Source of the DNA: Syncephalastrum monosporum B8922
Taxonomy: Eukaryota > Mucoromycota > Mucoromycetes > Mucorales > Syncephalastraceae
Assembly: GCA_000697355.1 (NCBI GenBank)
Contig: JNEN01001266.1
Coordinates: 1-64,000, forward strand
Direction: 5' to 3'
Length of the DNA stretch: 64,000 nucleotides
The translations under genes and the position numbers were made by a program. Positions 1 to 22,798 of the stretch are shown piece by piece (position 1 is the stretch's first letter; each line of letters opens with the position of its first letter). The notes under the pieces were generated by a model that was not told where the DNA came from, made no database searches, and saw nothing but the letters and a program-made list of their open reading frames with translations.

Positions 1-493
1 AGAAAAAAAAAAATAAAGGGAAAAAAAAAAAAAAAAAAAAAGGTACTGTTCCTGAAGCTGCGTTTGGGCCTTTTTGCATGTACAAAAATAGTGGTTTTTG
101 GAGCGGCGGTGTCAATTGGATCATGCAACTCAGATAAAGTTGCACGAAAATGTTTAATGCAGAGCAATGCAAGACGCTTATGCCTTACTGTATATACTGG
201 TTTATTGAATGTGATAGTGTGTGTACCTTGTAAAGTACGTTATACACATCCCAACACAAGATAGCTAGTTTCCATCACATCAGCGTCTGTCTCCATAGCG
301 ATCTCCTAGACAGCCTTATGAGAGGCGCCAGGCACAGTTGTCCAGTGCATTGGACTCATCTTTGGGCAAAAAAAGGCAGGAAAAATAGTGAATCCCAACT
401 CCAATGAGTCAATGAAGGCTGGCCATCTGCTCATGCGGGCTCTATACTGTCTCTTCCCACACATACACTGGCTTTGAATAAATCGACACACTG

Positions 494-512
494 GCGCGCG
501 CGCGCGCGCGCG
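494..512. repeat. Alternating CG dinucleotide tract upstream of the arm L ORF
   Basis: About nine CG dinucleotides lie some 75 bases before the ATG of the GC-rich ORF and are followed by a long pyrimidine tract. The same tract sits at the mirror position in arm R (16495-16513). Alternating CG of this length can adopt Z-DNA, and its position suggests a promoter element, but that is inference. Confidence 0.8.
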
Positions 513-587
513 TAGTTTGAGCGCGATTTTTATGCGATTTTTTTTTCCTTTTTTTTTTTCTTTTCTTTTCTCTTCACATTTATCGTC

Positions 588-2106
588 ATGCCTTCTACGC
601 CTTTGACAAACCACTGGACCTTTGCACCTCGCATCTCGCCCGTGCCTATTCTTCGCCTAGAGCCCGTTCCGACAGGGCTGGCCATGCAAGCATTTCAATT
701 CAAGCCGTCGATCGGCGACGTGCCGACCCTGCGACTCGCTGCGCCCGCTGCGCCCGCTCGCCCGTCCCGCCCGAACCTTGCCCACAAGCTGGAGCGCCGC
801 TCGCCTGCTGGGCAGGTCGGTGCCTTTTTAACCAAGTTCGACTTCCACTTTACGTCCTCCTCGTACTCCGGTGCATTGGCGCTCGCGCTGAACACACGGG
901 ATGCTAAAGACTACCGTCTCGCTTTCCCGTCCCACGCCGACGCCCGCTCTTCGTCTGTTTCGCGCCCCTCCGCTGCCACTGCGCCCGTGTGGACTGCTGC
1001 TGCTGCAGCTGGGCCTGCTCGTTTTTCTTCGTCCTCGGTGTCGGTGTCCTCGGTGTCGGTGTCCTCGGTGTCCTCGTCGTCCTGCTTCTCCTCCTCCTAC
1101 TTCTCCTCCTCCGCTCTCTCCTCCTCCACGTCGCTTGCGGGCCCCGTCGCAGCCGTAGCAGCTGGACGGGCAGCTGCCGCCGCAGCTGGGCGTGCGTCCT
1201 CTTCTTCCTCCTCGGTGTCGTTGTCGTCGACTTTCTCGTCTTTGTCCTCTGCGTCGCCTTCGGGCCCCATCGCTGCGGGGGCAGCTGGACGTATCTCTGG
1301 CGCTCATGCTGCGCAAGCCTCTGCTGTGCGCTCTGCCCGTGTCTGTTGACCGCCCCGCCCGCCTTTCTGTTGTCCGTGGTCCCCGTGTCTCCGCTGTCCG
1401 GGTTCGTCGCGCCTCTGGTCGTCGCACTCGTCGTGTGTCGGCTCTCCACGCTGCCGGCATCTCGGCTGTGCGTGTTCCCCGCGTGTCTGGCGTCCGTGCT
1501 GGGCGTATTTCTGGCCCTCGTCGCCTTCCTGCTTTCCGCGTCGCTGCCCGGATCTCTGCTTCCCGCGCTCGTCGCGTTTCTGGTGCTCGTGCGCGTCGTC
1601 GTCTGTCTGCCATTCGCGCTGCTGCCTGCCTGGCTGCTGCCCGCGCTCGTCGCGTCTCGGGTGCTCGTGTGCGTCGTCTGTCTGTTGTGCGCGCCGCCTG
1701 CGTCGCTGTTGTTCGTGCCGCTCCTCTGTCTGCCGTCAGGACTGGACGTGTCTCGCGCGTTTGCGCTCGTCGAGTCTCTGCGGTCCGGGCCGCCCGCCGC
1801 GCTGTCTTTCGCGCTGCCCGCCTGTCCTCCTTCCGCGCTCGCCGCTGCGGCCGCCCTTCGTCTGGCGCTTCTCCTGGCCGTGGTGCCGGCCCTGCCTGTG
1901 GGTCTGTCCCTGCGACCCTCACCTGGGCGCAGGTGGAATTGGAGGATGAGGACATCCTCATGGGGGATGCTCCCCCGCTGCGCCAACCTGGCGCGTCCAG
2001 GTTCGCCGTGCTCCGTCGCCAAGCCAGGTCGGCGACGGGGCACACCTGGTTGCGGCGCCGCCCATCTGGGCCGCGTCATGAGCGGCGGCTGGTGTCCGCC
2101 TCGTAG
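588..2106 (+). pseudogene. Arm L copy of the octapeptide-repeat ORF, frameshifted
   Basis: The frame starts at an ATG behind a CT-rich leader and matches the arm R ORF (14678-16411, minus strand) almost residue for residue for about 250 codons. It then hits a stop at 1347-1349, because a 179-base segment present in arm R is missing here. The breakpoint sits at a 4-base direct repeat (CACG on the arm R plus strand), which fits a slippage or microhomology deletion. After the deletion the repeat-encoding sequence continues in another frame to a stop at 2104-2106. Differences in the first 250 codons (A to P, S to P, G to S, A to S) are all amino-acid changing, so there is little sign of purifying selection. 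The function is unknown. Confidence 0.6.
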
Positions 2107-2109
2107 CTG

Positions 2110-3684
2110 GTAAGAGCTTTGTCATTTCTTGTATTCTCATGACCAGTTTAATTAACTCGCTTTTCGTTTTTAGGCAGCCCCCTCTGTGGTGTACCGGGAG
2201 AGCCGCCTGCCCATAGCTGCCGTATCCGGAGCCGACTAGCCGGTGCTACTTCACCCCACGACGGGAGACCCTCCCGCCCAAACCGATGCACACCGAGACG
2301 TATAAGGTCTCTAGCAGGCATCTCGAGAACAATGGCATTCACGTCCTCTCGTCTTTGGCTCAAAAGATAAGTATTTGCCTTCTTTTTCTTTTTTTCTCGA
2401 TGAATGGGGTCTAACAACATGACGCAGGTAGCCACCCGTCGAAAGTGAAGGATAGTATCCCAGTCATCGGTCTCCTGGCCACAGTATATGACTGCGAACT
2501 ATCCTACAACCCATTTTGTAGGGCTCCGGATGATGCCATTGTTCTTCTGTTTATCTTCGCTCATGCTCGCACTGCCGCAACGAATACACCGCACTTTCAT
2601 GGTGCCAAACTGGACCAAGTAAAAATACATGGACGGACGGTTGGGAAAGGTACAGTACAATGAGAAAATAAAGCAAGAATAAACAGGTACTCATCTCCTT
2701 TGATAGTCTCAAAAGTGCACGGTCTTGCGGTTGGGGGGTGTCTCCATCCGGGGTGGAGTGGTACCGGTAGGTCGGCAAGGACGGAAACACTGTCGGCACG
2801 CGTCAGGGCGAAAGGCGGCGAACCCGGTGCACCGCGAAGGGGGTCGCCATCGCTGCGGGGCGGACACCATTGCGGGGAGGTTGACGGAAAACAAGGCCTT
2901 TTGGCGGACCTAACCGCCGGAAGAGGTGGGAGGAAGGAAGTTTGGGGCAATACGAACGGTTTGTCCTCCAGGAGCACATCGCATCTTTTCATGTCAAGGT
3001 AAAGTACCTCACTCACTGATTCACCGAACCAGGTCCATTTACTCATATCATTTGAATCATACCTATTTGATTAGGTGAAGCGACGTTTTCCTCTACGGTT
3101 TCCTACGGTTCTGGTGGTATCAATAGGATTTGTCCCTTTTGTTCCGTTCCTCAGGTCGGTACTCAGACTATACAAAGCGTCACACCACGCATTAACTCCT
3201 AATCTTTTCATGGGCAGTTTGGATGGCAAAACAAACACACACGACACACAAGCTATCTCGTATCCCTCGCTCTCATTCGATTGAGGATGGGCTTGGCACG
3301 ATGATCAAGACCTGGACCTTCTATTTCCTACGCATGGCGGCTTAACACTGAGGCGTCGTACAGCAAACATACATTAATTTTGGTGAACAAAGGTCAGTCT
3401 GCAACACCAATTGAAGATATTTCATGCCTTGCTCATCAGTAATATGAGTAGCGCAGGTTCCGATTGGACTCGAGGTCGCTGCCCTACCTGAGTCGTGGTA
3501 GCTACCAATACACCTCCAAAGGTCTAGTTGGCACAGTACCTTTTCTACTCTCGATTGCTTCGACAAGGCAGGCGTATCATGCTTGGGTACCCGGGACCAG
3601 CAAATTTACAGCCCTTTATGGTGGCGACTAGTACCCACGACTACAGAAAGAAAGGCAAACAGCACGGAGCCATGTTTGCAAAAC
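2110..3684. other. Arm L interior, no secure gene
   Basis: This part follows the repeat ORF and is mirrored at about 13042-14670 in arm R. A GTAAGAG donor-like site at 2110 pairs with TTTTTAG at about 2174, giving a plausible 65-base intron directly after the ORF. A GC-rich block around 2700-2900 is open in several frames on both strands; the frames differ between arms through compensating indels, so none looks conserved as protein. The block at about 2895-3245 is the part that recurs in diverged form at 49.3 kb. I see no protein family here. Confidence 0.5.
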
Positions 3685-4107
3685 GGTATGTGTTCAACCC
3701 CCTTCAATTGACAATATCAAATGCTTATACTTTGCCTGGACCACTGATAGGGACACAAGGATAGACGACCGGACACCGGATCTCATGAAGAATGATTACA
3801 AGGGAACAACTACGGCAGATGATTACACAGACAGCGCAAGGGCATGTGTACAAAAAGGTAAGCTTTTAATGTTCTGCAAGTAACAATATCAAATACTTAC
3901 AGTATATCATATATGCATCACTGACAGGGACACGAATATAACCGGGCGGACACACCGGATAAGATGGCGAACGATTAGGAAAGAACAACTGCGACCGATA
4001 ATTACACAGACAGCACGCGGGCATGGTGTGCAAAAAGGTATGTGATTATTTGCACCTGGACAAATATATATAAGATGCTTATACAATGCCGATTCTTTTC
4101 GCTGACA
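3685..4107 (+). repeat. Tandem exon-intron-like modules in arm L
   Basis: Two and a half copies of a degenerate unit of about 175 bases are present: 3685-3856, 3857-4036 and a partial copy from 4037. Each begins with a good splice donor (GGTATGTG, GGTAAGC, GGTATGTG). An AT-rich stretch containing ATATCAAATGCTTATAC-like sequence follows, then an acceptor-like CACTGACAG, and then an exon-like block with CCGGACACCGGAT, ATTACACAGACAGC and a GCAAAAAG end. The preserved donors and acceptors suggest duplication of an exon plus its intron. The mirror copy lies at about 12620-13041 on the minus strand. Reading frames across the modules are interrupted in arm L, so coding capacity is unproven. Confidence 0.7.
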
Positions 4108-4576
4108 GTGCGCGCAAACGAACTCAAAGTACACCCATCACATTTGGCGAAAAACAGCATCCATATTATTCCACATATCGTGGATCCCGACATGCGATCA
4201 TTCCTACTTCTTCATGGTCATTGGTGCGCAGACGTCTTATCCTACTGTCTTGACCATCGCAACCTACTTTATATGTGGCGAACACACCCAACATACTGCT
4301 CTGGTAGCTCTCGACTATCGTTTTGAGATTGCTGGAAGCACCTTTGGAAAGGTAAAGCAAGCGTACCGCAGTTGACATGACAATGATCTTACGTGATTTT
4401 CATAGAGCATGTGCCGTATATGATACTCGACACTCCTGCGCATACTGTGGACAATCGCCTTCTCGCTACACGCATTCCGAGCCCCAATTTGTACGCTGCT
4501 TGGGTGAACAAAGGCCTCTCTGGATGGAACATCAATCTGTGCTTGACTCATCTTGGCTGGCTGCAACAACAACAAC

Positions 4577-4611
<35 letters not shown>

Positions 4612-5596
4612 CATATCCAAATCCAAATCCAATACCAAACCAGAAAGCATCGTCCGGCCCAGACATTACATGGTAAGCAAAAATGACAGGTGATGATCAT
4701 AGTCATGTATTAATTCATCCTTGCTTAATGTCTTGTTATAGGACACCGGACATGGTAGACGGACACATACACAAAAGTCCCTTCTACAGGATCGATTGGC
4801 CTACAAGTCAGTAGGCATATCCAAAGCCAAATCCTTCTTGAAACGCTTTCACACGCATCAGCTATCAGCAAATGCATACGCAGCACAAACCCCAACAAAA
4901 GAAAAAGAGCAAGTCACTTGTATAATGCACTACCCAGCAGACGCACTAGTTCACCCAGGTAGCATGGCCTATAGCTCGTCTTACACAAATAAAAATAAAA
5001 TACTTGTGGTGTGTACACTACACCTATCTTATTATACTGCATGATCATCCACTGAATCTGTGTTGAAAGAGACGTGCGTGTGTTTACAGAAAATGAGTTT
5101 TGGTGGATGTGCTCACTGCCGTGGACAGAGCAAGGATCACTTGGCCAATCGCATTGCATCGCAGTCAGACTAGACCACGATCACCGCTTTTACTTTGGGA
5201 GAAAAGGTACGTGCCCCAATCTCTCAATCATTCCGGATCTTCTTCTTCAAACACACAATTCGCCCAGACTGATCTTGCTTCTGCAGCCCGCTGAAGGTGA
5301 AACGAGAGCCATGCTGGGCGCTCATTGAACCAAGATGACGATGGGTGCCGAGTATCACGCGTAAATAGCCTTGGATGGTCACCACCTTGCACTGATTTAT
5401 TTTTTTCTTGTTTCTCCTTCTTTCTAGTCTCCATCCACACGCTCTCTTTCCTGTAGGCTTGCCACGGGGATCTTTCTGTTACGGCAGCAAGCATTAAGGG
5501 ACACCAGCAAAGGTACGTCCCTGAATTGTAATCATGCAAGACTCCAATTGCCGCACGCCGACCGGCATGACGCGTTGCACAGACTCAAACATGCCC
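4108..5596 (+). other. Arm L inner part with candidate spliced exons
   Basis: Several open segments are bounded by convincing splice signals. A block at 4108-4326 follows GCTGACAG and encodes 72 residues conserved in arm R with only three changes. A block at about 4408-4674 ends in a GGTAAGC donor and holds a CxxC...H...C-like segment plus a Q/N/K-rich microsatellite tract. A block at about 5090-5204 ends in GGTACGTG. A block at 5426-5511 follows a long pyrimidine tract and TTCTAG and ends in GGTACGT. The phases do not join into one clean protein in either arm. I recognise no family. It may be a decayed multi-exon gene or a spliced non-coding transcript. Confidence 0.4.
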
Positions 5597-7662
5597 ACTT
5601 GCACCTCGTGTCCGGTAACACAAGACCGCACAGCACAGCACACTGACCAAAAAGCAGCACGCACTCCTTGGCGATGGCCACGCCACCATCCACGCATATC
5701 CACCTCAGAACAGGTATTTCACCACATCCATTCATGCACAGAAATTGATCCATCACTGCGTACCATCCCCAACCAAGCCGCCAACACTGCAGACAGGCCT
5801 CTTACTACCTTTCCATGCTACAGCCATCCTCTCTGTTAGGTGAGAACGGACATGTGCAAGTAGCAGCATTACAACAAAGTGCATCGATACCAAGCTATTT
5901 CCGTGTTCATTTTTTAGCTAATCAGCTCCCAGATCAGCCCAACCCAAGTCCATACGCGGTGCATTGAAAACCCTTCGATACGATGAGCTTTTCGGGCCGT
6001 CTTAACGTCCGCTTTTCAGATCCCAATCAGCCAAGTGCGTCCTGGTCGAGTTATCGCCGGGTGGAAGTCAAATTTTCTATGGGAGCAAAAGCCACGGGAT
6101 TGTTGCAAGGGATAGTATATCATGGAAAAGGAAGGATGGATTCAGTTTGTAGGGCATTGGTGTGTCGAAGGCGTTCGGTATCAGGATTGTGCTATGATGG
6201 TGCCGTTGGGGCATTCGCGAATGCTGTATCAAAGTTAGTACATGGTGCCATTCCTTTCACATTTTGTTCACACCAGATCGGATGGTCATGAACGCATAAA
6301 TCTTCTGGCTGCACAGTGCCCTCCTGCTTTGCAACGTCATGTAAAAGCGAAGGTGCCGAAAGGTTGGTTTCCATGGATATGCTCTTGACACTGTATGTAT
6401 TGAAAAGAAGCATTAGAATGCCTTGGTCATTACCACTCCTGTTTTTATCGTCTTGTTTTTTTTTTTTCAATCCTGGTCAAGCGGTACTGTGCTCCTTCTT
6501 ACGGCAGCTATAAGCCGTAGCACGCCGTTTGACATGTGCAGCTGTTGACAGGCACACACAAACACCAGACCTCTGCTTGATGATATTTGGATTGAATAGA
6601 TATAATGTATGCATATATTCAAATCTTATATATATAACCGCTGTGCTCGTGAACAAAAGCCTTTGTTTCTCTTCCTCACACATTCTGACTCGCTTTCTCT
6701 GTCTCTCTCTTTTCAACAGAATACACAGATACATTGTCTCTGTCTATGTTTTAGATTTGGAGATCGATTCCCCGGCCAATTCGTCCATGCTAAGACTGTT
6801 TGTGAGATGACCATTGAGCTTACGAGCCTTTTTTTGCCACCCATAGGCGATCGAGTGTCCATAGCATAACCCGTGCACTCTGGTGCAACCATGCACAGGT
6901 TGGCCATTGTTCCCTGTTCATAGTAAGTAGTGTAATCTTCCGCTGGTCCGCGGACGTGAATGTGAGATATAGACAGGAGAGAATGTAAAATGAATATAGG
7001 CTCACGAAGTGAGACCTGTATTTTAGGTATATTGAGAATCTGGAGAGAGCATGCGCAAGAGACTGCAACCTAAAGAAGAATGTACTAGAGAGCCTGCATA
7101 TGTGGCACTGGCTGGAGGCGAAGCAAGCTGCGCTCAGTGAAATATAGAGGGAAGAGACGGGAAGAAGCGCTGTTGTGGACAAGATCGCGCGCTCCTTGCA
7201 TAACTATCAAAGCGACTCGTGCTACAGTGTAGGTTGAATTTCGAGCGATAATACAGATATGCAAGGCCTATATAAACCCAAAGTTTATCCTTATACAGTA
7301 CTTTAGTGCTTATGAAGAATCATAGATACCTGCTTCATCGTCTACCCTAAAATCAAATTGCCTACTTGTTTTTACTGCGCTTTTCACTACGCTATGAAAT
7401 ATAGATCAAGGGCGAAAACCTGCTTCTTTTTATAAAACCTTATCCGAGCTTATGCCTACAAGAGCGCATCTAGCTTGGTGGAATTGAACCCCGCATCTCC
7501 AAGTAAGACAAAGTCATGCGTATATAAGTGATAGATGAGTTTGCTTCAGATACTATGATACTACAGATGTGATTGTCTTGACGTCTTGGATGGACTACAT
7601 AGATAGACAGATACACCTTAAATGAGTCGACTGATCCACATAGCAATTTCATTATGAAAACA
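5597..7662. other. Inverted-repeat spacer, left part, no secure gene
   Basis: Unique DNA lies between arm L and the oxidoreductase gene. A plus-strand frame near 5983-6291 is open but not recognised. The segment around 6020-6100 (CAGCCAAGTGCGTCCTGGTC and onward) resembles 9999-10075 on the other side of the oxidoreductase gene in the same orientation, so both may be decayed copies of one unknown sequence. No tRNA, rRNA or transposase was found. Confidence 0.5.
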
Positions 7663-9285
7663 TTACAGTTCCTCTGTTTTAAGCACCATCTTCCCGTCTG
7701 CTCGCAAGCGTTCCAAAAGAACATGTCCAAACGCGGTAGCAGTTGTAAGGACTCCTCCTTCTTTGCCTGGAAGTACTTCATGATCTTTGACGAGGCACAT
7801 CGCCGATTCAATTAGCATGCGGGCTGTATCACCGTATCCACCGTGTTTGAAACCTGCGTAGACCGTGTCAGCTCTCTATGTCTTCCCAATGAGCACCATT
7901 ACCTTTGACAATGCCGCGTACCCGCACAGATTGGTCAGAAGGGCCCTTTTCAGATGTGGCAACGAGCTGGACCTCCCAGGTACTGTTCTCGATCTCTTCG
8001 CGTGTCGGGCCCTCACCACTGCTTGGCAACAGATTTGCCACTCTGTTGCGGGTGAGGCGCATGCGCAACAAGGGGATCATAATGGGACCTAAAAGCACCA
8101 TGACCGTTGTGAACGCAAGAGCAGAAAAGAATTTCATAGATAGCGTTTCGCTTTTATATTGGGTATTAGCTCAAAGTCTCTTTTTCGTCATTCGGTTCAC
8201 TTACTGGTAACGGAACGCAGGACCATAGCCTTCGTCACGTTCGGCAAGAAGAGCCCAGCTACGACGCACAATGCGTTCGTTCGTCGGTGCCATGGCCCAG
8301 AATGCCTGCCAACGCTTACCAAAGTCCTTGTCGCGCCTCATCATCAATGAAGGGATTGAGTCTTTTCCACGCACAGGAGACAGCAGATAAGGGTCAAGTG
8401 ACTGCATGAGCGATATATTATCGTCTCCCATAACTTCTGCGAAGGATTGATAGGTTCCGCCTGACAGACCGCCCTCGAACGAGATGACAGAGCACTTTAC
8501 GTCCTTGATTCCAATATTGTATTTCTTTCGGATGTAATCGCATACCCTACGTAGCATCAAAGAGGGTCAGTACACTTTAGAACTTTTAGTTCTCTGTTGA
8601 GACTCATACATAAAGGTGCCCAGATCACTTGGAATAGAATCAAAACCGCAGCACGGCACAATGAGAGTGCCGTCTTGACGCGCTTTGTTATGGTGCTTGT
8701 CAATAAGGCTCTTGACAAAGTTATATTCGCCCGTGCTATCAATGTAGTGTGTCTGGTTTTCGACACACGCCTCGACGAGCAGACCGCCATATTTGGTGAA
8801 AGGCCCGACAGTACTAAGGACAACGCGCGTCTGACGGACGATACGGTCGAGGGACTCACGGTCGCCCGAGTCACCGATCAACACGTCCACGTGGTTCTAT
8901 ATAGTGTATCGTACTCATATTAGCATAAGGGCAATGCGATCTTTATTGTACTTTGTGACCTACCGCGCATTCGCTGTCAAGCGCCACAAGTTTTGCTTTG
9001 ACGTCTTCGAGTTTCTTGCTGTTGCGTCCAGCTATAGCCCAGCGCACATCCTGACAGTGATAGTACCGAATTTATCAGCTCAGATCATTCATTAAAGGAA
9101 GTACTCAATATGCACACATATCACTTCATACTTTGTTGTTACTTTGGACCAAATACTCGCATACCAGGGATCCAGTAAAACCGGTAGCGCCAAATATCAC
9201 TGAGTTTTATATGTCGCTTGCTTTAGCATAATGAAGGCGGGATTGCATGAAATAAAAAATTACCTAAATCGTATGTTCGTGACAT
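7663..9285 (-). CDS. Saccharopine dehydrogenase-like oxidoreductase, copy 1 (within the inverted-repeat spacer)
   Basis: The product is a saccharopine-dehydrogenase-like (SCCPDH / trans-acting enoyl reductase type) NAD(P)-dependent oxidoreductase, likely membrane- or lipid-droplet-associated; the substrate is unknown. Seven exons joined by six short GT-AG introns give about 420 residues with no break. The N-terminus MSRTYDLVIFGATGFTGSL carries the Rossmann glycine motif GATGFTG. It is followed by the family signatures STVGPFTKYG, THYIDSTGEYN, CCGFDSIPSDLG and GGLSGGT, and a hydrophobic segment (about 30 residues, beginning FFSALAFTTVMVLLGP) near residue 280. The C-terminus has GYGDTARMLIESA and the family's usual TAFGHVLLERLRADG. 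The start is the ATG just before intron 1, matching the paralogue at 20867-22602. All six introns sit at the same places in both genes, so they arose by DNA duplication. Identity to the paralogue is roughly two thirds by eye. Codon use here is more AT-rich than in the paralogue. Confidence 0.9.
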
Positions 9286-11091
9286 TTTCTTGTACGTTGA
9301 TGTGAGCGAAAAAAAAAAAAAAAAAGGTGTGTGCGTGGGACGATACGATGAGAGCGATCATTTTATACAGTAGCCTGCTTTGTACAACTTGACTTTCTAT
9401 TCGCATCATTTGGCGGGGCAGCTTTAAACTGCGACACGTGGACTCTTCCTTCAGCGTTGGCGTAGTACTCTGTTATGGTGTATAAAAGTAACGACGCTAT
9501 ATTGGCATTGCAAATTAGAAATCGTTTTTTCGAGACAAACGTCATTGGCAAATGCATTCCAATTGCACTTGATTTTCTGTGCTCGTTCGGCAAAGCCGCG
9601 TCATGTTACCAAGAAAAGGACTTTTCGGCTTATGTGCTGCTGAAGTCGATCCATACCAAAAATGGTAGATTGTACAGTGTACGTACTGTATGTACATAAT
9701 GTCCAGTATAGGAAGGGCCTTTTTAATACATTCGTCTGGCTCACGTCTTGAACATTCTTGTAACGGAAGAAGGATGGAGTGAGACGGAAAACCCAAAAGT
9801 AAGCGCACGTTACTTTGCAATGCACCACGTAAACTGCAACTTGATGACTGTTTCTTACCGACATTCAGTTGTCAAGCAGTCAAGGCCATGTTGCTCAAAT
9901 CCTCTTCATCTACAGAAGCATTTTCTATCGGTGTCAATGCGGTATAGGATTACGATGGATATTTGTGCCTTTTTCACGTCCGCCTTATAGATGCCAAGCA
10001 GTCAAGCTCGTTCTGGTCAATTCCTCGTCGCGTGCAAGTTCTATGGTGACAAAGCCTTGCGAGAGGTGTACGCGCAGGGATTGGCTGATGGATGTGACGT
10101 TACCATCACGGTATTCATCCAGCTGATGGTGCGCAAAGTCTGTCGAGGAACAGGCGTCTTTCGTATTGACTTTTGCAAAGAAGGCGGAGACCACCGGAGC
10201 CATATCAAGGGCAGCATATCAATGAAAGCGTATGATATATTACAGTCTGTAGGTCGTTTGTTTTCAAAAAACACTCCCTATCAAGTATTTGCATGTGATG
10301 GTAAGGTAAGGTTTGTTAAAACATGTCCGTATATGGTGTATCAAAGGCAGTACCGTAGTCTGTTGGAAACTGAGACCGCCCAATAAAAGTTGAATAACAG
10401 AACCCGGAAGTCAATACAAGTACTTCGCATTGTTGGAGACTCTGTTCGAAGATCACTATAAAAAATAGTTGCCTTGAAAACGAGCACGCTGCTCTTTCGG
10501 GAGTGACATAGCTATCAACGTCTATGTGCGCAGGAAAACCAGAGTGCAGATAATCTTCTTATCCACGCTTTCTGGTGCCGAGGTCGCACCTCCATCTACG
10601 GTGAGATCGTCGTCATCTGCAAGTCCATGCCGTATGGGTATCAGGTTCATGCGAGATGGTTTTATACTCGCACATCAGGCCTTTGGGTGCCGACATGTCA
10701 TGGTTTATTCAGTATCGCTTGTATGGTATTTGCCACCGAGAGGCGATGGACTTGCGGAGCATGAATGCTTGCTTCGGGATGACTGGGACGCTTATTGGCT
10801 GGAAGAACGACGACGTGATTATATCATAGTGCTAATGCAATGCAATGCAGCATTGTATAGCACTTGATACTTTTCTGAGGACGCTACACAGGTGGAAGAC
10901 GGTTGTATGAAATACACTCTAGTGGCGTGCCTAATGAAATAAAGTAGGAAATAAAATTCTGCGCATGTGGAAGGTTCCCGGATACACGTCAATTTTTAGA
11001 CATAAATGGTGGTGCTTCCATGAGCAAGAAATGCTGATCTGTCACGGTGCTGTCTGTGCTGCCTTATGCTACTGCAGTTGAATAATAAAAA
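9286..11091. other. Inverted-repeat spacer, right part, unassigned open frames
   Basis: This stretch contains the short 5' flank of copy 1 (with an A-run at 9308-9325) and two plus-strand frames, 9991-10386 (131 codons) and 10526-10867 (113 codons), neither recognised. The sequence at 9999-10075 resembles 6020-6100 in direct orientation. The first frame has the look of a degraded coding sequence (a segment starting KFYGDKALREVYAQGL is compositionally protein-like), but no family can be named. AATAAA-like signals occur near 10940 and 11085. Confidence 0.4.
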
Positions 11092-12040
11092 GGGCATGTT
11101 TGAGTCTGTGCAACGCGTCATGCCGGTCGGCGTGCGGCAATTGGAGTCTTGCATGATTACAATTCAGGGACGTACCTTTGCTGGTGTCCCTTAATGCTTG
11201 CTGCCGTAACAGAAAGATCCCCGTGGCAAGCCTACAGGAAAGAGAGCGTGTGGATGGAGACTAGAAAGAAGGAGAAACAAGAAAAAAATAAATCAGTGCA
11301 AGGTGGTGACCATCCAAGGCTATTTACGCGTGATACTCGGCACCCATCGTCATCTTGGTTCAATGAGCGCCCAGCATGGCTTTCGTTTCACCTTCAGCGG
11401 GCTGCAGAAGCAAGATCAGTCTGGGCGAATTGTGTTTGAGGAAGAAGATCCGGAATGATTGAGAGATTGGGGCACGTACCTTTTCTCCCAAACTAAAAGC
11501 GGTGATCGTGGTCTAGTCTGACCGCGATGCAATGCGATTGGCCAAGTGATCCTTGCTCTGTCCACGGCAGTGAGCACATTCACCAAAAATCATTTTTTGT
11601 GAGCACACGCACGTCTCTTTCAACACAGATTCAGTGGATGATCATGCAGTATAATAAGATAAGTGTAGTGTACACACCACAAGTATTTTATTTGTGTAAG
11701 ACGAGCTATAGGCCATGCTACCTGGGTGAACTAGTGCGTCTGCTGGGTAGCGCATCATACAGGTAACTTGCTCTTTTTCTTTTGTTGGGGCTTGTGCTGC
11801 GTATGCATTTGCTGATAGCTGATGCGTGTGAAAGCGTTTCAAGAAGGATTTGGCTTTGGATATGCCTACTGACTTGTAGGGCAATCGATCCTGTAGAAGG
11901 GACTTTTGTGTATGTGTCCGTCTACCGTGTCCGGTGTCCTACAACAAGGCATTAAGAAAGGATGAATTAGTACATGACTATGATAATCACCTGTCATTTT
12001 TGCTTACCATGTAATGTCTGGGCCGGACGATGCTTTCTGG

Positions 12041-12128
12041 TTTGGTATTGGATTTGGTATTGGATTTGGTATTGGATTTGGATTTGGATTTGGATTTGGA
12101 TATGGTTTTCGTTTTCGTTTTCGTTTTT
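12041..12128. repeat. Expanded hexamer/12-mer microsatellite in arm R
   Basis: Repeated TTTGGTATTGGA and TTTGGA units are followed by TTTTCG units. The corresponding arm L site (about 4578-4640) has about four TCCAAA/TACCAA units and five CGAAAA units. The two arms therefore differ in repeat number, showing independent slippage since duplication. Confidence 0.9.
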
Positions 12129-12619
12129 TTTTTCTTTTTCTGTTGATGTTGTTGTTGTTGCAGCCAGCCGAGATGAGTCAAGCACAGATTGATGTTTCAT
12201 CCAGAGAGCCCTTTGTTCACCCAAGCAGCGTATAAATTGGGGCTCGGAATGCGTGTAGCGAGAAGGCGATTGTCCACAGTATGCGCAGGAGTGTCGAGCA
12301 TCAGATATGATACATGCTCTATAAAAAACACGTAAGATCATTGTCATGTCAACTGCGGTACGCTTGCTTTACCTTTCCAAAGGTGCTTCCAGCAATCTCA
12401 AAACGATAGTCGAGAGCTACCAGAGCAGTATGTTGGGTGTGTTCGCCACGTATAAAGTAGGCTGCGATGGTCAAGACAGTAGGATAAGACGTCTGCGCAC
12501 CAATGACCATGAAGAAGTAGGAATGATCGCATGTCGGGATCCACGATATGTGGAATAATATGGATGCTGTTTTTCGCCAAATGTGATGGGTGTACTTTGA
12601 ATTCGTTTGCGCGCATTGT

Positions 12620-13041
12620 CAGCGAATAGAATCAGCATTGTATAAGCATTTGATATAATTGTCCAGGTGCAGTTAATCACATACCTTTTTGCACATAATG
12701 CCTGCGTACTGTCTGTGTAATTATCGGTCGCCGTTGTTCTTTCCTAATCGTTCGCCATCTTATCCGGTGTGTCTGCCCGGTTATCTTCGTGTCCCTGTCA
12801 GTGATGCATATATGATATAATGTAAGTATTTGATATTGTTACTTGCAGAACATTAAAAGCTTACCTTTTTGTACGCATGCCCTTGCGCTGTCTGTGTAAT
12901 CATCTGCCGTAGTTGTTCCCTTGTAATCATTCTTCATGAGATCCTGTGTGTGTCCGGTCGTCTGTCTTTGTGTCCCTGTCAGTGGTCCAGGCAAAGTATA
13001 AGCATTTGATATTGTCAATTGAAGGGGGTTGAACACATACC
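12620..13041 (-). repeat. Tandem exon-intron-like modules in arm R
   Basis: This is the mirror of 3685-4107. On the minus strand one module keeps an uninterrupted frame from a CACTGACAG acceptor to a GGTAAGC donor, entering and leaving in the same phase (phase 1), where the arm L module has lost that frame. That is what a duplicated symmetric exon would look like, but the neighbouring modules do not all keep compatible phases. Confidence 0.6.
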
Positions 13042-13620
13042 GTTTTGCAAACATGGCTGCGTGCTGTTTGCCTTTCTTTCTGTAGTCGTGGGTACTTGTC
13101 GCCATCATAAAGGAGTGTAAATTTGCTGGTCCCGGGTACCCAAGCATGATACGCCTGCCTTGTCGAAGCAATCGAGAGTAGAAAAGGTACTGTGCCAACT
13201 AGACCTTTGGAGGTGTATTGGTAGCTACCACGACTCAGGTAGGGCAGCAACCTCGAGTCCAATCGGAACCTGCGCTACTCATATTACTGATGAGCAAGGC
13301 ATGAAATATCTTCAATTGGTGTTGCAGACTGACCTTTGTTCACCAAAATTAATGTATGTTTGCTGTACGACGCCTCAGCGTTAAGCCGCCATGCGTAGGA
13401 AATAGAAGGTCCAGGTCTTGATCATCGTGCCAAGCCCATCCTCAATTGAATGAGAGTGAGGGATACGAGATAGCTTGTGTGTCGTGCGTGTTTGTTTTGC
13501 CATCCAAACTGCCCATGAAAAGATTGAGGAGTTAATGCGTGGTGTGACGCTTTGTATAGTCTGAGTACCGACCTGAGGAACGGAACAAAAGGGACAAATC
13601 CCATTGATACCACCAGAACC

Positions 13621-13664
13621 GTAGGAAACCGTAGGAAACCGTAGGAAACCGTAGGAAACCGTAG
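13621..13664. repeat. 10-bp minisatellite (GTAGGAAACC) in arm R
   Basis: Four full GTAGGAAACC units plus a partial unit are present. Arm L has only one full unit at the matching place (about 3096-3112). Confidence 0.95.
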
Positions 13665-14677
13665 AGGAAAACATCGCTTCACCTAATCAAACAGGTATGA
13701 TGCAAAATGATGTGAGTAAATGGACTTAATTTGGTGAATCAGTGAGTGAGTACTTTACCTTGACATGGAAAGATGCGATGTGCTCCTGGAGGACAAACCG
13801 TTCGTATTGCCCCAAACTTCCTTCCTCCCACCTCTTCCGACGGTTAGGTCCGCCAAAAGGCCTTGTTTTCCGTCAACCTCCCCGCAATGGCGTCCGCCCC
13901 GCAGCGATGGCGACCCCCTTCGCGGTGCACCGGGTTCGCCGCCTTTCGCCCTGACGCGTGCCGACAGTGTTTCCGTCCTTGCCGACCTACCGATACCACT
14001 CCACCCCGGATGGAGACACCCCCCAACCGCAAGACCGTGCACTTTTGAGACTATCAAAGGAAATGAGTACCTATTTATTCTTGCTTTTCTTTTCTCATTG
14101 TACTGTACCTTTCCCAACCGTCCGTCCATGTATTTTACTTGGTCCAGTTTGGCACCATGAAAGTGCGGTGCATTCGTTGCGGCAGTGCGAGCATAAGCGA
14201 AGGAAGATAAACGGAGGAACAATGGCATCATCCGGAGCCCTACAAAATGGGTTGTAGGATAGTTCGCAGTCATATACTGTGGCCAGGAGACCGATGACTG
14301 GGATACTATCCTTCACTTCCGACGGGTGACTACCTGCGTCATGTTGTTAGACCCCATTCATCGAGAGAAAAAAGAAAAAGAAGGCAAACACTTATCTTTT
14401 GAGCCAAAGACGCGAGGATGTGGATGCCATTGTTCTCGAGATGCCTGCTAGGGACCTTATACGTCTCGGTGTGCATCGGTTTGGGCGGGAGGGTCTCCCG
14501 TCGTGGGGTGAAGTAGCACCGGCTAGTCGGCTCCGGATACGGCAGCTATGGGCAGGCGGCTCTCCCGGTACACCACAGAGGGGGCTACCTAAAAACGAAA
14601 AGCGAGTTAATTCAACTGGTCATGAGAATACAAGAAATGACAAAGCTCTTACCAGCTACGAGGCGGACACCAGCCGC

Positions 14678-16411
14678 TTAGCGGCGGCTGTACGGGTGCA
14701 GGCCCCATCTCATGAGGCCCGCACCCAGCCGCCGCTCATGACGCGGCCCAGATGGGCGGCGCCGCAACCAGGTGTGCCCCGTCGCCGACCTGGCTCGGCG
14801 ACGGAGCACGGCGAACCTGGACGCGCCAGGTTGGCGCAGCGGGGGAGCATCCCCCATGGGGATGTCCTCATCCTCCAATTCCACCTGCGCCCAGGTGAGG
14901 GTCGCAGGGACAGGCCCACAGGCAGGGCCAGCACCACGGCCAGGAGAAGCGCCAGACGAACGGCGGCCGCAGCGGCGAACGCGGAAGGAGGACAGGCGGG
15001 CAGCGCGAAAGACAGCGCGGCGGGCGGCCCGGACCGCAGAGACTCGACGAGCGCAAACGCGCGAGACACGTCCAGTCCTGACGGCAGACAGAGGAGCGGC
15101 ACGAACAACAGCGACGCAGGCGGCGCGCACAACAGACAGACGGCGCAAACGAGCACCCGAGACGCGACGAGCGCGGGCAGCAGCCAGGCAGGCAGCAGCG
15201 CGAATGGCAGACAGACGACGCGCACGAGCACCAGAAACGCGACGAGCGCGGGAAGCAGCGATCCGGGCAGCGACGCGGAAAGCAGGAAGGCGACGAGGGC
15301 CAGAAATGCGCCCAGCACGGACGCCAGACACGCGGGGAACACGCACAGCCGAGACGCCGGCAGCGTGGAGAGCCGACACACGACGAGTGCGACGACCAGA
15401 GGCGCGACGAACCCGGACAGCGGAGACACGAGGACCACGGACAACAGAAAGGCGGGTGGGGCGGTCAACAGACACGCAAGCAGCGCCAGCAGACGACATG
15501 CGGGCAGCGGAACCAGAAGCCGCGCAGGCAGCGGGAGCGGAAGGCACGCGGGCAGAGCGGGCAGAGCGGGCAGAGCGGGCAGAGCGGGCAGAAGAGCCAG
15601 AAGACAGGTGGGCGCCAGAAATTCGTCCAGCGCGCACAGCAGCGCGAGCAGCACGGGCAGAGCGCACAGCAGAGGCTTGCGCAGCATGAGCGCCAGAGAT
15701 ACGTCCAGCTGCCGCCGCAGCGATGGGGCCCGAAGGCGACGCAAAGGACAAAGACGAGAAAGTCGACGACAACGACACCGAGGAGGAAGAAGAGGACGCA
15801 CGCCCAGCTGCGGCGGCAGCTGCCCGTCCAGCTGCTACGGCTGCGACGGGGCCCGCAGGCGACGTGGAGGAGGAGAGAGCGGAGGAGGAGAAGTAGGACG
15901 ACGAAGACACCGACACCGAGGACACCGACACCGAGGACACCGACACCGAGGACACCGACACCGAAGACGAAGAAAAACGAGCAGGCCCAGCTGCAGCAGC
16001 AGCAGTCCACACGGGCGCAGTGGCAGCGGAGGGGCGCGAAACAGACGAAGAGCGGGCGTCGGCGTGGGACGGGAAAGCGAGACGGTAGTCTTTAGAATCG
16101 CGTGTGTTCAGCGCGAGCGCCAATGCACTGGAGTACGAGGAGGACGTAAAGTGGAAGTCGAACTTGGTTAAAAAGGCACCGACCTGCCCAGCAGGCGAGC
16201 GGCGCTCCAGCTTGTGGGCAAGGTTCGGGCGGGGTGGGCGAGGGGGCGCAGCGGGCGCAGCAAGTCGCAGGGTCGGCACGTCGCCGATCGACGGCTTGAA
16301 TTGAAATGCTTGCATGGCCAGCCCTGTCGGAACGGGCTCTAGGCGAAGAATAGGTACGGGCGAGATGCGAGGTGCAAAGGTCCAGTGGTTTGTCAAAGGC
16401 GTAGAAGGCAT
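14678..16411 (-). CDS. Octapeptide-repeat protein, unknown function (arm R, intact frame)
   Basis: An ATG behind a pyrimidine tract opens a 577-codon frame. Residues 1-125 are non-repetitive (start MPSTPLTNHWTFAPRISPV). A Ser/Ala-rich region follows, with SVSSVSVSS repeats and short Ala runs. From about residue 300 to 490 there are roughly 20 degenerate eight-residue repeats of the type ARRVSAVR / LRRLSVVR / ARRVSGAR. RRxS is the basophilic-kinase (PKA) consensus, so the repeats would be multiply phosphorylatable if made. The tail has an acidic patch (ELEDEDIPMGDAPPL) and an Arg-rich end. The island is GC-rich (about 65-70%), unlike the rest of the arm. Caution: the 24-base repeat leaves all frames on both strands fairly open, including a long plus-strand frame ending at 16171, so coding is not proven. 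No known family is recognised. Confidence 0.4.
   Translation of the reverse strand: MPSTPLTNHWTFAPRISPVPILRLEPVPTGLAMQAFQFKPSIGDVPTLRLAAPAAPPRPPRPNLAHKLERRSPAGQVGAFLTKFDFHFTSSSYSSALALALNTRDSKDYRLAFPSHADARSSSVSRPSAATAPVWTAAAAAGPARFSSSSVSVSSVSVSSVSVSSVSVSSSSYFSSSALSSSTSPAGPVAAVAAGRAAAAAAGRASSSSSSVSLSSTFSSLSFASPSGPIAAAAAGRISGAHAAQASAVRSARAARAAVRAGRISGAHLSSGSSARSARSARSARSARVPSAPAACAASGSAARMSSAGAACVSVDRPTRLSVVRGPRVSAVRVRRASGRRTRRVSALHAAGVSAVRVPRVSGVRAGRISGPRRLPAFRVAARIAASRARRVSGARARRLSAIRAAACLAAARARRVSGARLRRLSVVRAACVAVVRAAPLSAVRTGRVSRVCARRVSAVRAARRAVFRAARLSSFRVRRCGRRSSGASPGRGAGPACGPVPATLTWAQVELEDEDIPMGDAPPLRQPGASRFAVLRRRARSATGHTWLRRRPSGPRHERRLGAGLMRWGLHPYSRR
15556..15599. repeat. 9-bp tandem repeat GGGCAGAGC in arm R
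   Basis: About five perfect units lie within the 179-base segment missing from arm L. On the coding (minus) strand they encode an alternating Ala-Arg-Ser run. Their repetitive nature makes the region deletion-prone. Confidence 0.9.
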
Positions 16412-16973
16412 GACGATAAATGTGAAGAGAAAAGAAAAGAAAAGAAAAAAAAAAAAAAGGAAAAAAAAATCGCATAAAAATCGCGCTCAAACTACGCGCG
16501 CGCGCGCGCGCGCCAGTGTGTCGGTTTATTCAAAGCCAGTGTATGTGTGGGAAGAGACAGTATAGAGCCCGCATGAGCAGATGGCCAGCCTTCATTGACT
16601 CATTGGAGTTGGGATTCACTACTTTTCCTGCCTTTTTTTTGCCCAAAGATGAGTCCGTTGCACTGGACAACTATGCCTGGCGCCTGCCATAAGGTTGCCT
16701 TGGAGACTTCTATGGAGACATACGCTGATGTGATGGAAACTAGCTAGCTTGTGTTGGGATGTGTATAACATACTTTACAAGGTACACACACACACTATCA
16801 CATTCAATAAACCGGTATATACAGTAAGGCATAAGCGTCTTGCATTGCTCTGCATTAAATATTTTCGTGCAACTTTATCTGAGTTGCATGATCCAATTGA
16901 CACTTCGCCGCTCCAAAAACCACTATTTTTGTACATGCAAAAAGGCCCAAACGCAGCTTCAGGAACAGTACCT

Positions 16974-17494
16974 GTTTTTTAATTTGCCCTGTAGCATATG
17001 AGTTGAAGCCTTTGGGTAATGATCTATCATTGTTTTAGCAAAGGCTACTCATCCTAGCTGTTGTGGCTGGGATATTCGGTGCTTGTCTGTCCGAAGCATT
17101 GTACAGCGCTCTTTCATTTGAGCATGTCCATAAACTTGATGTCGCATTTCCTTAATACCAAAACTCAGCATGCTGGAAGTGACTCATGGCTTCCTCGAAG
17201 CGATGGGACGCCCACAAGGCTGCCCAAATTATAAACGAATAGGATTTCGTTTATGGAGCACCGAATAAAGAAGCTTGTATCAGAATACCACAGACGACAG
17301 GTGCATGGACACGGGCACAGATCAGTTCGTGCAGTATGAGTTTCATCTGTTTGGCAAGTTTTACGAAGTCGGTCATGTGGTTGGGATTCCTCTTATATTC
17401 CACCTTCAACTCTGTCCTGTCCGTTCCTGGTCTCCTCTCTCTTGTCTTGTTTCCTGTGTCCTGTCACGGCTTTGGTCCTTACTTCGCATCACAT
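16974..17494. other. Flank outside arm R, nothing recognised
   Basis: Unique AT-rich sequence begins with a T-run right at the arm boundary. No gene, and no repeat of the bases left of arm L that would indicate a target-site duplication. Confidence 0.6.
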
Positions 17495-18338
17495 CTACAA
17501 CACTACCTTCCACATTACACCGTGTTTGTTGACGCGAGTGACCGTATAAGGACCTAGCCGCCGATCGCTAAACTTACTCTCGGGGTGCTGATCTCGCATC
17601 AGGACTTGCTCGTCGATGCCGAAACGTCTGCGGGACATGATCCCAACAGCTGCTGATAAGGATCCAGCCTTGGCATAAACAACCCAGTCGAGCTTGTAGA
17701 TCAATGACCGTTCGCCGTGTCCGTTGCCCTCGCTGATATCGTTGTCGTCCGAGTCTCCAGAAATGATGTTCTCCGCGGATTTTTGATCGGTTTGGCTGCT
17801 GCAAAGTAAAGAACCGTTTGTGCTGCAGAAAAATAACAGCGAGACAGGGATAAGCTTCCTCATTCAATCCACATGAGTCTGATTACCAGTCATGTCTGAA
17901 CCGAGATTCAGAGCCAAATACAGTAGCAGCGCGGATAAGTTATACTCAGATGAGTTATATTCTTTTGATCTTCCGAGCGCATAACTTGCCCACGCGGCGA
18001 CTGTGTTGTGTCCAAGAGAGCATCCACGTATTGATGAACTAAGGTATCTTCCAGCATTCTTTTTTTTTCCCGAATTGCAATAATCGAGGAGCCCTACCGC
18101 ATAGCAAAATGAGAGAGTCAATCTTAGCGGTAACTGAATTTTATCATTCATTTACAATGAGTGGATGATATCTGCCGCGATAAGTTGATCTGGATATGCC
18201 GATGACACAGCTTCGGCAAGAAAGGAAGTTGTGATCTTCTTCAACGAGTACCAGCATGGATTCTGTACCTATCTGAAGCATTAGTAAATCAATTACTACA
18301 CGCGGAAAAATATTACCGTAGACAATTTGGAGCACCAT
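17495..18338 (-). pseudogene. Ty3/gypsy-like integrase C-terminal remnant
   Basis: On the minus strand, residues resembling the C-terminal region of Ty3/gypsy integrase can be read (VLMRDQHPESKFSDRRLGPY followed by TVTRVNKHGV, the usual 'KFSDRWLGPF.V..V...GV' signature) at about 17510-17620. Further minus-strand open pieces upstream (17864-18151 and 18144-18338) may belong to the same body but cannot be assigned. Stops and frame changes separate the pieces, so this is a decayed retroelement. Confidence 0.55.
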
Positions 18339-20866: not shown

Positions 20867-22602
20867 ATGTCGCGAGAATACGATTTGGGTAATTCGACTT
20901 GGCCTTGACTGCATTCTATGCGACAGGACGCTCATGGACGTTGTCTGATTCACACCAGTTGTTTTTGGTGCCACCGGTTTTACGGGTTCGCTCGTGTGCG
21001 AATATATTGCCCAACTGAAGGACAGGGTAAGTGCGCGCACGAAGCTGCTCTTGCTGTCATTGCAATGACAATGACTTGCTCATGTGTATACTATCAACAG
21101 GACCTGCGATGGGCCATCGTGGGCCGAAACACCAAGAAGCTCGAAGACGTCAAGGCGCGTCTCGTATCGTATGATGCCGAGTGCGAGGTAAGCACACATA
21201 AATAAATGCCATCATAAAATTCATGCTAAAAATGCTGCCCTCCTGCATCTCTGGAAAAAAGCAACGTGTGGATCTGTTAACAGCCGACTCGGGCGATCGT
21301 GAAGCGCTCGGCCAAGTGGTGCGCAAGACACGCGTCGTTATTAGCACGGTTGGCCCCTTTACAAAGTACGGCACCCCGCTCGTTGACGCGTGTGTGGAAA
21401 ACAAGACGCATTACGTCGATATCACAGGCGAGTATAATTGGGTCAAAAGCATCATTGACAAATATCACGACAAGACCCGTCAAGACGGCACCATGATTGT
21501 TCCCTCCTGCGGCTTTGACTCCATCCCCAGTGACCTCGGCACTTACTTGCAAGTGGATTTTATATGATACTTTAATTTTTTTTTTTTTTCAAATTAACCC
21601 ATGTCTTGAATGTTGCAGGGTCTGCGAGCATATTCGAAAGAAGCACGGTTTGAGTGTTGGGAGCGTCAAGGCGTCCGTGACCGAAGCCAAAGGCGGTGTG
21701 TCGGGCGGCACATGCCAGTCGCTTGTCGAAGCCATGTCGGACCCAAGCACGACGGTGGCGCAGACCATGGATCCTTACTTGCTCGCACCTGTGCGCGGTA
21801 CAGACAAGCAGCCCTCGGTGATCATGCGCAAGGACAAGGACTTTGGCCAACGCTGGCAGGCATTCTGGGTCATGGCCCCTACCAACGAAAAAGTCGTACG
21901 CCGCAGCTGGGCCCTCCTGACCCAGCGGGGTCAAGGTTACGGCCAGCTTTTCCGCTACAAGTACGTAGGAAAAAAGGAGGAACAAGGAAAAAGAGAGAAA
22001 GAGGGAGAGAGAAAGAGAGAAGAGAAAAAAAAAAGGGGTGGGCAGAAACTTTGTTTTGTTTTTTTCAATGGAGGCTCTTGTTGACAACAGCAAAATAGGG
22101 AGACGCTGTCGCTACCGTTCGTGCCCGCATTGGCGTTAACGGCAATGTTGGTCCTCTTTGGCCCGCTCTTTGCTCTCGCGCTGCGTGTAGGATTCATGCG
22201 CCGCATCATCCAAAAGATTCTGCCCGGCAGTGGTCAGGGTCCCTCGCGCGAGGAACGCGAGAATGGCTCCTACGAGTTACAGTTTTATGCTACGGCTGAA
22301 ACCGAGCCTTATGATCATCCTGTGCGCGTACATGGCGTTGTCAAAGGTAAGCCAAAGGAAAAAGGGAGTTCGTGAGCGTGTATGCATATGTGCCTTACAC
22401 TGTCACAACAGGCTTCAAGGATCCCGGCTATGGCGACACATGCCGCATGCTCACCGAGTCCGCGCTGTGCATTGTCAAGAGTTACGACGAACTCCCGGGC
22501 AAGGAGGGCGGTATCCTCACGCCCGCCACCGCGTTTGGCGACGTCCTCCTGGATCGCCTGCGTGCAGATGGCAAGATGGTGTTTGAGGCACGTGACCTGT
22601 AA
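20867..22602 (+). CDS. Saccharopine dehydrogenase-like oxidoreductase, copy 2
   Basis: This NAD(P)-dependent SCCPDH / trans-acting enoyl reductase type oxidoreductase is the paralogue of 7663-9285 with the same seven-exon layout. The start MSREYDLVVFGATGFTGSL has the Rossmann GATGFTG motif. STVGPFTKYG, THYVDITGEYN, PSCGFDSIPSDLG and GGVSGGTCQS follow, then a hydrophobic stretch of about 25 residues (FVPALALTAMLVLFGP) and the conserved end GYGDTCRML ... TAFGDVLLDRLRADG. Length is about 420 residues. The fourth intron appears to use a GC-AG pair: the exon ends ...ACTTACTT and the intron starts GCAAGTGG, whereas copy 1 has a normal GT donor at the same position. Codon use is GC-richer than in copy 1, as expected for a well-expressed gene. 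Confidence 0.93.
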
Positions 22603-22798
22603 TCGCAATCAAAAGAACCCCTTCACTGCTAGCTATCTGCTTTATCCCCTATGTCGCTAACAAAGATATCCAGTCCATGAAGATGAATTTAAATGATTAT
22701 ATAAACTAGATGTATATCTTATTTGTTTTCCATATAGTATCAGATATCAATAGAGGAGGAGGAAGAGGAGTATTTCACGATCCCAGTGTCAAGGGAGG

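Follow-up and report, generated by a model that had tools for sequence, protein, structure and literature searches.

The first 17 kb of contig C185 of the Syncephalastrum monosporum B8922 assembly, which open the window (the whole stretch of 64,000 nucleotides that was analysed), raise the question of what two long inverted arms on either side of a reductase-like gene represent: one mobile element, a duplicated segment or a source of hairpin RNA. The arms appear to be two copies, in opposite orientation, of a gene that is repeated many times, and not the termini of a single mobile element. Directly behind its protein-coding frame, each copy of this gene (unit A) carries a predicted, unusually long RNA hairpin that may be selected as RNA. 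The features of the region are as follows, with positions in the window.

34..5596, forward: left arm, consisting of a unit A copy, whose 5′ end coincides with the contig start, and unit B fused to it; from self-BLAST and comparison with contig C58
588..1349, forward: ORF1 remnant of the left arm, 253 aa and then loss of frame; the stop-codon region is also deleted
2091..2868, forward: RNA hairpin of the left arm, z −12.9 (fold prediction)
2110..2173, forward: predicted intron of the left arm, the same as that of the right arm, ends approximate (sequence prediction)
2869..4996, forward: 3′ noncoding tail of unit A in the left arm, AATAAA near 4990
5108..6832, forward: fragment of unit B that is joined to A and reaches further upstream in other copies (genome matches)
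7868..8896, reverse: exons of the spacer gene, a saccharopine-dehydrogenase-like reductase (of its exons, 8567-8896 alone has a Pfam match)
11092..11578, reverse: unit B fragment of the right arm, 487 bp
11092..16980, reverse: right arm, made up of the 487-bp B fragment and a unit A copy with its 5′ end near 17005; from self-BLAST and genome matches
11686..13888, reverse: 3′ noncoding tail of unit A in the right arm, with splice-like sites and internal repeats, AATAAA at about 11687-11692
13889..14671, reverse: RNA hairpin of the right arm, z −8.9 (fold prediction, folded as 13885-14675)
14589..14652, reverse: predicted intron (GTAAG...TAG), a bulge in the helix of the right arm, ends approximate (sequence prediction)
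14678..16411, reverse: ORF1 of the right arm, a low-complexity frame of 577 aa plus stop whose C-terminal cap is conserved

Self-BLAST of the window aligned the two arms (34-5596 and 11092-16980) at 95–97% identity in four inverted blocks, each with an E-value reported as 0: 11092-13642 with 5596-3083 (94.9%), 13647-14677 with 3110-2085 (96.4%), 14725-15493 with 2092-1320 (97.3%) and 15649-16980 with 1345-34 (95.5%). The inverted repeat recognized in the preliminary description is thus real in the assembly, while the sharp outer ends in A/T-runs that it also reported were not borne out. The outer end of the left arm is formed by the first bases of the contig, and the similarity of other family members runs past 16980, to about 17005-17069 and, in the case of C180, to 17274. 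The inner ends fall within repeat B, away from any element terminus. In the ORF region, 179, 55 and 6 bases are missing from the left arm relative to the right. Both arms have a common internal A-B junction and are paralogous to dispersed copies, and of the readings first proposed it is an inverted segmental duplication that is supported by these comparisons, with a fused A-B block present twice in opposite orientation.

A search for other copies in this genome, named in the preliminary description as a check, was run and found many, the right arm having at least 103 matches in the 27.5-Mb genome. Judged from these copies, unit A is a gene family without known relatives, and its encoded protein is hypervariable, of low complexity and conserved in a C-terminal cap. 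Of the 11 aligned copies, 6 have an intact ORF1 that opens with a start codon and continues through the conserved C-terminus, with products of 467–618 aa. Its dN/dS is about 0.3 overall (0.32 and 0.28 for whole ORFs; 0–0.30 for the C-terminus in 15 pairs). Synonymous distance was dropped as a neutral yardstick, and introns were used instead, because C-terminal dS (48–62 codons) was out of line with intron distance; between the right arm and C137, for example, dS is 0.69 and the distance in intron1 is 0.016. Searches of about 5.8 billion proteins at E 0.001, with a single-sequence query (7986 candidates scored) and an alignment query (7985), found no relative of the ORF1 protein, although a miss is possible given a low-complexity query and few scored candidates. 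The copy on C125 had no PDB match at E 0.01, and the viral contigs encoded no confirmed ORF1 relative. The 5′ ends of A copies are variable; at the 3′ end, of the 29 pair comparisons that gave a match, 18 end 41–56 bases past AATAAA and 11 reach 76–224 bases.

Every full copy aligned has the predicted RNA hairpin of about 780 nt directly 3′ of the ORF1 stop codon, on the same strand, and the genome contains 12 full-length hairpin copies, three that are cut by contig starts and three decayed loci. Fold z-scores, from 20 shuffles each, reach −15.7 for the copy on C98, and for the right arm −8.9 in the sense orientation versus −4.9 in the antisense; by prediction, this is the long, significantly stable hairpin that characterizes an hpRNA locus. 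Three hairpins fall −64, −69 and −77 kcal/mol below their shuffles, and the window background (80 folds of 800 nt, from 40 places on both strands) is −0.2 ± 10.4 kcal/mol, its extreme of −33 kcal/mol coming from a segment overlapping the left hairpin. A control in the distal tail (12300-13090) gave no signal (z +0.84). Rfam returned no match at the gathering score in the window and none over 11000-17300 with E relaxed to 1, protein searches found no cross-species homologue, and a 30-base string of the hairpin had no exact match in the viral contigs. The earlier suggestion of a hairpin-RNA source survives in altered form, as a hairpin within each arm; the two 5.6-kb arms do not form a good hairpin with one another.

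The genome carries a Dicer-like locus on C102 (PAZ and two RNase III matches), two other PAZ loci and RdRP matches, and with genes for Dicer, Argonaute and RdRP in this genome, self-silencing is the leading candidate mechanism. Dicer acts on long, near-continuous duplexes. In the explanation that we favor, the edge of the window would hold two oppositely oriented copies of the A-B segment, and unit A would run from the hypervariable protein through a quasi-double-stranded hairpin of about 780 nt and a spliced-looking noncoding tail to AATAAA. The unit would be transcribed and spliced, the host Dicer/Argonaute/RdRP system would cut the hairpin, and family A would in this way silence itself post-transcriptionally. 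We consider the anatomy, a gene family plus a selected sense-strand hairpin, to be likely, the RNAi self-silencing step to be tentative and somewhat more doubtful than probable, and the explanation as a whole, anatomy and self-silencing together, to have about an even chance. If the hairpin is diced, family A would be a natural multi-copy gene bearing its own RNAi trigger. More speculatively, and with the balance tilted against it, the family could be a self-limiting selfish one, whose mRNA combines a hypervariable protein with its own family-wide silencing hairpin, or the hairpin could represent a large structured RNA from early-diverging fungi that is linked in cis to a protein.

It is conceivable, but rather unlikely, that the hairpin is a structural or regulatory 3′ element (for stability, localisation, translation or as an RNP scaffold) and not a Dicer substrate. 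Strong conservation of domain A3, the inner one (mean identity 97%), and of the small predicted hairpins over the ORF1 stop codon goes beyond the apparent need of a dsRNA trigger, and the fold has many bulges and G-U pairs. However, it matches no known RNA family, its near-continuous long duplex would suit Dicer, and RNAi genes are present.

The way in which the hairpin has changed among copies bears on whether it has any RNA function, and was followed in an alignment of 11 copies (C58 was left out as a duplicate of the left arm, and C18, C190, C169, C73, C164 and C167 as partial). Canonical pairs occupy 99.6% of long-helix cells in the sense orientation, 87.3% in the antisense and 41–47% when the pairing is slid. 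The pair is kept in 20 of 23 long-helix changes, and in 12 of 23 on the antisense strand (p 0.002), with the pairs predicted from the same alignment, which favors keeping, and changes counted per column and not on a tree. Transitions account for 22 of these 23 changes versus 43 of 104 for unpaired columns. When all predicted pairs are taken together, pairs are no longer kept in excess (52/87, p 0.34), only one of 1263 helix cells shows a double change, and in the inner domain the pair count is powerless (500 of 500 shuffles as high). Among decayed copies, C73 has 79 of 211 pairs broken and 12 double changes that keep the pair, and C167, in the inner domain, 14 of 69 and four. The hairpin might be a passive remnant of an ancient inverted duplication, its copies kept alike by gene conversion and devoid of RNA function, and this unlikely reading draws on the near absence of double covariation among the 11 copies, the loss of pairs in decayed ones, the lack of a pair-keeping excess over all predicted pairs and the apparent sequence exchange among copies (the left arm and C58 are 99.98% identical over 5007 bp). 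Against it stand the almost exclusive transitions of the long helix, the sense-antisense asymmetry (the antisense strand also beats its own shuffles, z −4.9), and the predicted intron, about 64–69 nt long, embedded in the helix. Between subfamilies, the intron has diverged by 0.16–0.22 and the surrounding helix by 0.04–0.07 (8 pairs), a roughly 3–5-fold contrast that regional conversion would not give and that therefore counts against a relic; in one of the 12 pairs compared, C125-C63, the helix is the more divergent (0.031 vs 0.015). Deleting the predicted intron costs 1.3–7.2 kcal/mol, less than all 12 random deletions of the same length in 11 of 11 copies, in a test that left the last intron base in place and in which a bulge anywhere is cheap to delete. 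What can be read from sequence in favor of a gene family with a selected hairpin is the copies, the conservation of the ORF, the thermodynamic hairpin, the slower and mostly pair-keeping change of the long helix and the predicted intron bulge.

Subtelomeric multigene families of fungi have many copies, a hypervariable ORF and near-identical tracts. Unit A resembles them in all of these, its near-identical tracts suggesting exchange, and several of its copies lie at contig ends, but an exact TTAGGG x4 string has no match in the assembly, and contig breaks at the hairpin may partly explain the contig-end bias. Drosophila hpRNA loci, according to excerpts of PMC10317233, are hairpins that make endo-siRNAs against selfish genes, and they share with family A a long imperfect hairpin RNA, fast-evolving multi-copy genes and host RNAi genes. 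The family A hairpin differs in that it lies directly after a protein gene on the same strand, belongs to a fungus, is predicted from sequence, and has no long DNA match outside family A and fragments of it. Comparative genomics has revealed fungal RNA motifs, such as an 11-bp stem and a hairpin with two internal loops (extracts of PMC8216456 and PMC5640933), that are likewise conserved RNA structures in or beside fungal genes, but the motifs described in these extracts are hairpin-sized, whereas the unit A structure is about 780 nt and multi-copy; the word start 'mucor' is absent from the main texts of both papers. In the related mould Mucor, hairpin constructs silence genes through ago-1, with an engineered transgene in the extracts of PMC3720535 as opposed to the predicted natural hairpin of unit A. 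Titles and abstract openings in the literature yielded no selected-looking long hairpin directly after a protein gene in Mucoromycota, and such RNAs seem to be rare.

An assembly error, in which the left arm would be the consensus of a repeat, joined to C58 as well as to C185, is improbable. The end of C58 and the start of C185 have the same terminal base, the two share 1-5376 with a single mismatch, and in five family copies a contig breaks off within the hairpin or at its edge, which points to a difficult assembly. However, the arms differ from each other by 3–5%, which means that they are not a fold-back of one arm, and divergence from C58 over 5377-5694 is gradual, as between real paralogues. 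The five contig ends suggest that the hairpin is a cause of assembly breaks here; family A is also cut by contig ends elsewhere, on C87, C125, C137 and C180.

The region after ORF1 is very unlikely to consist of protein-coding exons conserved at the protein level: open frames of 100–185 aa occur there on both strands and match other copies, and single 60-base windows show a phase skew, but the codon phase is unsteady, indels are mostly not multiples of three, and Pfam gave no hit above the cut-off.

Scarcely credible is the view, also raised in the preliminary description, that the 17-kb structure is a single long-TIR transposon with the reductase gene as cargo, since, despite inverted arms of 5.6–5.9 kb around that gene and the clustering of many A-copy 3′ ends just past AATAAA, no second opposite-orientation A pair occurs within 20 kb among the 103 matches listed, the spacer is mostly unrepeated so that arms and interior do not recur together among those matches, the 5′ ends and the other 3′ ends of A copies vary, the left end is a contig edge, and a transposase domain is absent from the right arm and spacer. 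The earlier remark that known mobile-element enzymes are lacking held for the right arm and spacer, where Pfam found no transposase, reverse transcriptase, integrase or Rep domain in six frames.

Unit B was considered as a second structured RNA and rejected, as a fold signal is absent on either strand of 5108-5907 (z +0.96 and +2.17). Among the matches listed, repeats in the spacer are confined to the B-derived edge (about 5597-6850), the reductase gene with its paralogue, and two places of weak similarity, near 9936-10129 and near 10717-11090. The saccharopine-dehydrogenase NADP-binding match scored 23.7 bits in the frame scan (cut-off 25.1) and 29.5 bits, above the cut-off, in the single exon; exons 7868-8170 and 8201-8566 had no Pfam match, and two further hits in the scans of the right arm and spacer were far below the cut-off. 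The paralogue of the reductase lies at 21268-22603.

The window covers bases 1 to 64,000 of contig C185. The inverted repeat of the preliminary description is present in the genome assembly (27.5 Mb, 198 contigs), with 34-5596 matching 11092-16980 at 95–97% identity apart from some deletions. A DNA search of the right arm against the genome returned at least 103 matches, and these divide the arm into two repeats, unit A (about 5.3 kb) and unit B (the inner 487 bp). Unit B is found without the remainder of the arm in many contigs, and A without B at each of the nine additional A loci retrieved; of the matches inspected, only those in the two arms and contig C58 have the A-B junction. The main features are:

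34-5596, plus strand, left arm
2091-2868, plus strand, predicted RNA hairpin of the left arm
11092-16980, minus strand, right arm
13889-14671, minus strand, predicted RNA hairpin of the right arm
14678-16411, minus strand, ORF1 of the right arm (577 aa)

Judged from its sequence, unit A is a gene family (family A). It carries a long ORF (ORF1) on the minus strand of the right arm, equivalent to the plus strand of the left, and among 11 copies compared this is unbroken from start codon to conserved C-terminus in six (right arm, C137, C125, C88, C98 and C63), a count that leaves aside C188 and C187, where openness from the start codon was not established. ORF1 is broken in C159 and the left arm, where the frame is lost and a 55-base deletion has removed the stop-codon region, and is truncated by the contig end in C99. 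Its middle is repetitive and hypervariable, and its C-terminal stretch is conserved. The dN/dS ratio is 0.32 (C125/C88) and 0.28 (C98/C63) over the whole ORF, and 0 to 0.30 across 15 pairs at the C-terminus. Pfam domains were absent in the six copies scanned, and a homologue search returned none. An AATAAA-like signal near 11686, at the end of the unit, is common to the copies. In the right-arm tail, 12041-12109 is a short run of tandem repeats of a TTGGAT-like hexamer, with a repeat unit of 12 bases.

The most conserved stretch of unit A adjoins the ORF1 stop on its 3' side. It has no consistent codon phase, apart from skew in isolated windows, its indels are mostly not multiples of three, and it is predicted to fold into a hairpin of about 780 nt. 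RNAalifold gave -338 kcal/mol for 11 copies, with a 115-pair long-range helix around an inner hairpin domain, and in single-sequence folds the long helix joins the same regions. With 20 shuffles each, sense-strand z-scores were -8.9 (right arm), -15.7 (C98) and -12.9 (left arm); the right-arm antisense strand also beat its shuffles (z -4.9, 20 shuffles). A control stretch of unit A gave +0.84, and unit B showed no fold signal (+0.96 and +2.17). For 80 folds of 800-nt segments, taken on both strands at 40 places along the window, the difference from shuffles was -0.2 ± 10.4 kcal/mol, the most extreme (-33 kcal/mol; minus strand, 1601-2400) overlapping the left hairpin and ORF; for the three hairpins it was -64, -69 and -77 kcal/mol. 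Twelve full copies are present in the genome; three more are truncated where a contig begins, and C73, C164 and C167 carry decayed pieces.

Substitutions among the copies bear on whether the fold is under selection. With pairs predicted from the same alignment and changes not corrected for the tree, pairing in the long helix is kept by 20/23 changes on the sense strand and 12/23 on the antisense; the share expected to do so on the sense strand, were transitions to strike these pairs at random, is 57% (p = 0.002 for the observed 20/23), and the excess disappears when every predicted pair is counted (52/87, p = 0.34). Transitions make up 22/23 long-helix changes versus 43/104 in unpaired columns (p = 9e-7), and changes number 0.10 per column in the helix versus 0.31 per column in unpaired positions. 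In eight between-subfamily pairs divergence is 0.04-0.07 for the helix, 0.16-0.22 for a predicted intron embedded within the helix and 0.19-0.27 for another predicted intron further downstream; in one of the 12 pairs compared (C125-C63) the helix is more divergent than the embedded intron. This intron forms a bulge, and deleting it (its last base stayed in place) costs 1.3-7.2 kcal/mol, below all 12 random same-length deletions in 11/11 copies, which fits a spliced RNA having a continuous helix. Double changes are nearly absent in the 11 copies (1/1263 long-helix cells), and the inner-domain pair-count test was powerless, 500/500 shuffles scoring as high. In C73, 79/211 pairs are broken and 12 double changes keep the pair; in C167 the figures are 14/69 inner-domain pairs and four. 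This pattern is consistent with dead copies and lends little support.

Genes for RNA interference are present. A Dicer-like locus on C102 matches PAZ and two RNase III domains, PAZ matches occur at two further loci, and RdRP (PF05183) gave 22 match rows (C36, C15, C141, C186 and others), eight with internal stops that introns may partly explain, which suggests an expanded and perhaps partly decayed set. In Mucor, hairpin RNA constructs cause gene silencing via ago-1 (PMC3720535). In a DNA search for long matches, the hairpin sequence turned up only in family A and its fragments, so siRNAs derived from it would target at least family A itself. We therefore tentatively favour self-silencing, in which such siRNAs would act on family A. 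Only slightly less likely is a 3' RNA element with a structural or regulatory role. Five contig ends fall inside the hairpin or at its edge (C18, C190, C169, C99, C184) and others cut family A elsewhere (C87, C125, C137, C180), so their position argues only weakly for a subtelomeric location.

As to mobility, the 5' ends of A copies are variable; on the 3' side, 18 of 36 pair comparisons end 41-56 bases beyond AATAAA, 11 continue to 76-224 bases and seven have no match there. Despite this cluster, the pattern resembles segmental copying more than it does a transposon whose termini are fixed. The right end of C58 equals window 1-5376 except for one base, diverges across 5377-5694 and then has no match, and an end of C180 is identical to 16553-17095, diverging up to 17274. 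The inverted layout looks like an ordinary segmental copy, with no function required. A single element of arms and spacer, one of the readings first proposed, is disfavoured by arm pieces occurring separately in the genome and by most of the spacer not being repeated with the arms, and its supposed left terminus coincides with the contig edge.

ORFs at 17495-17863 (minus strand) and, at another fetched locus, L020:1566-2090 (minus strand) share the peptide stretch EQVLMRDQHPESK, which by eye, without Pfam confirmation, resembles a retroelement integrase end. About 25 bases beyond a copy of unit B on C151 begins a 233-aa ORF (L022:2861-3559, minus strand) with a P-loop, helicase-like by eye; in Pfam it matched DUF5906 only, below cut-off (E 0.014). 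The spacer holds a 131-aa open frame beginning with Met (9991-10386, plus strand; no Pfam match). An ABC-F protein of the window is 98% identical to a Syncephalastrum racemosum protein, other named matches listed reaching at most 90%; one further record is 100% identical over 96% of the length. This places the genome in Syncephalastrum or a very close relative. The spacer gene is saccharopine-dehydrogenase-like (8199-8890) and has a paralogue about 13 kb away, near 21.3 kb (21268-21966), with 66% identity over the longer match.
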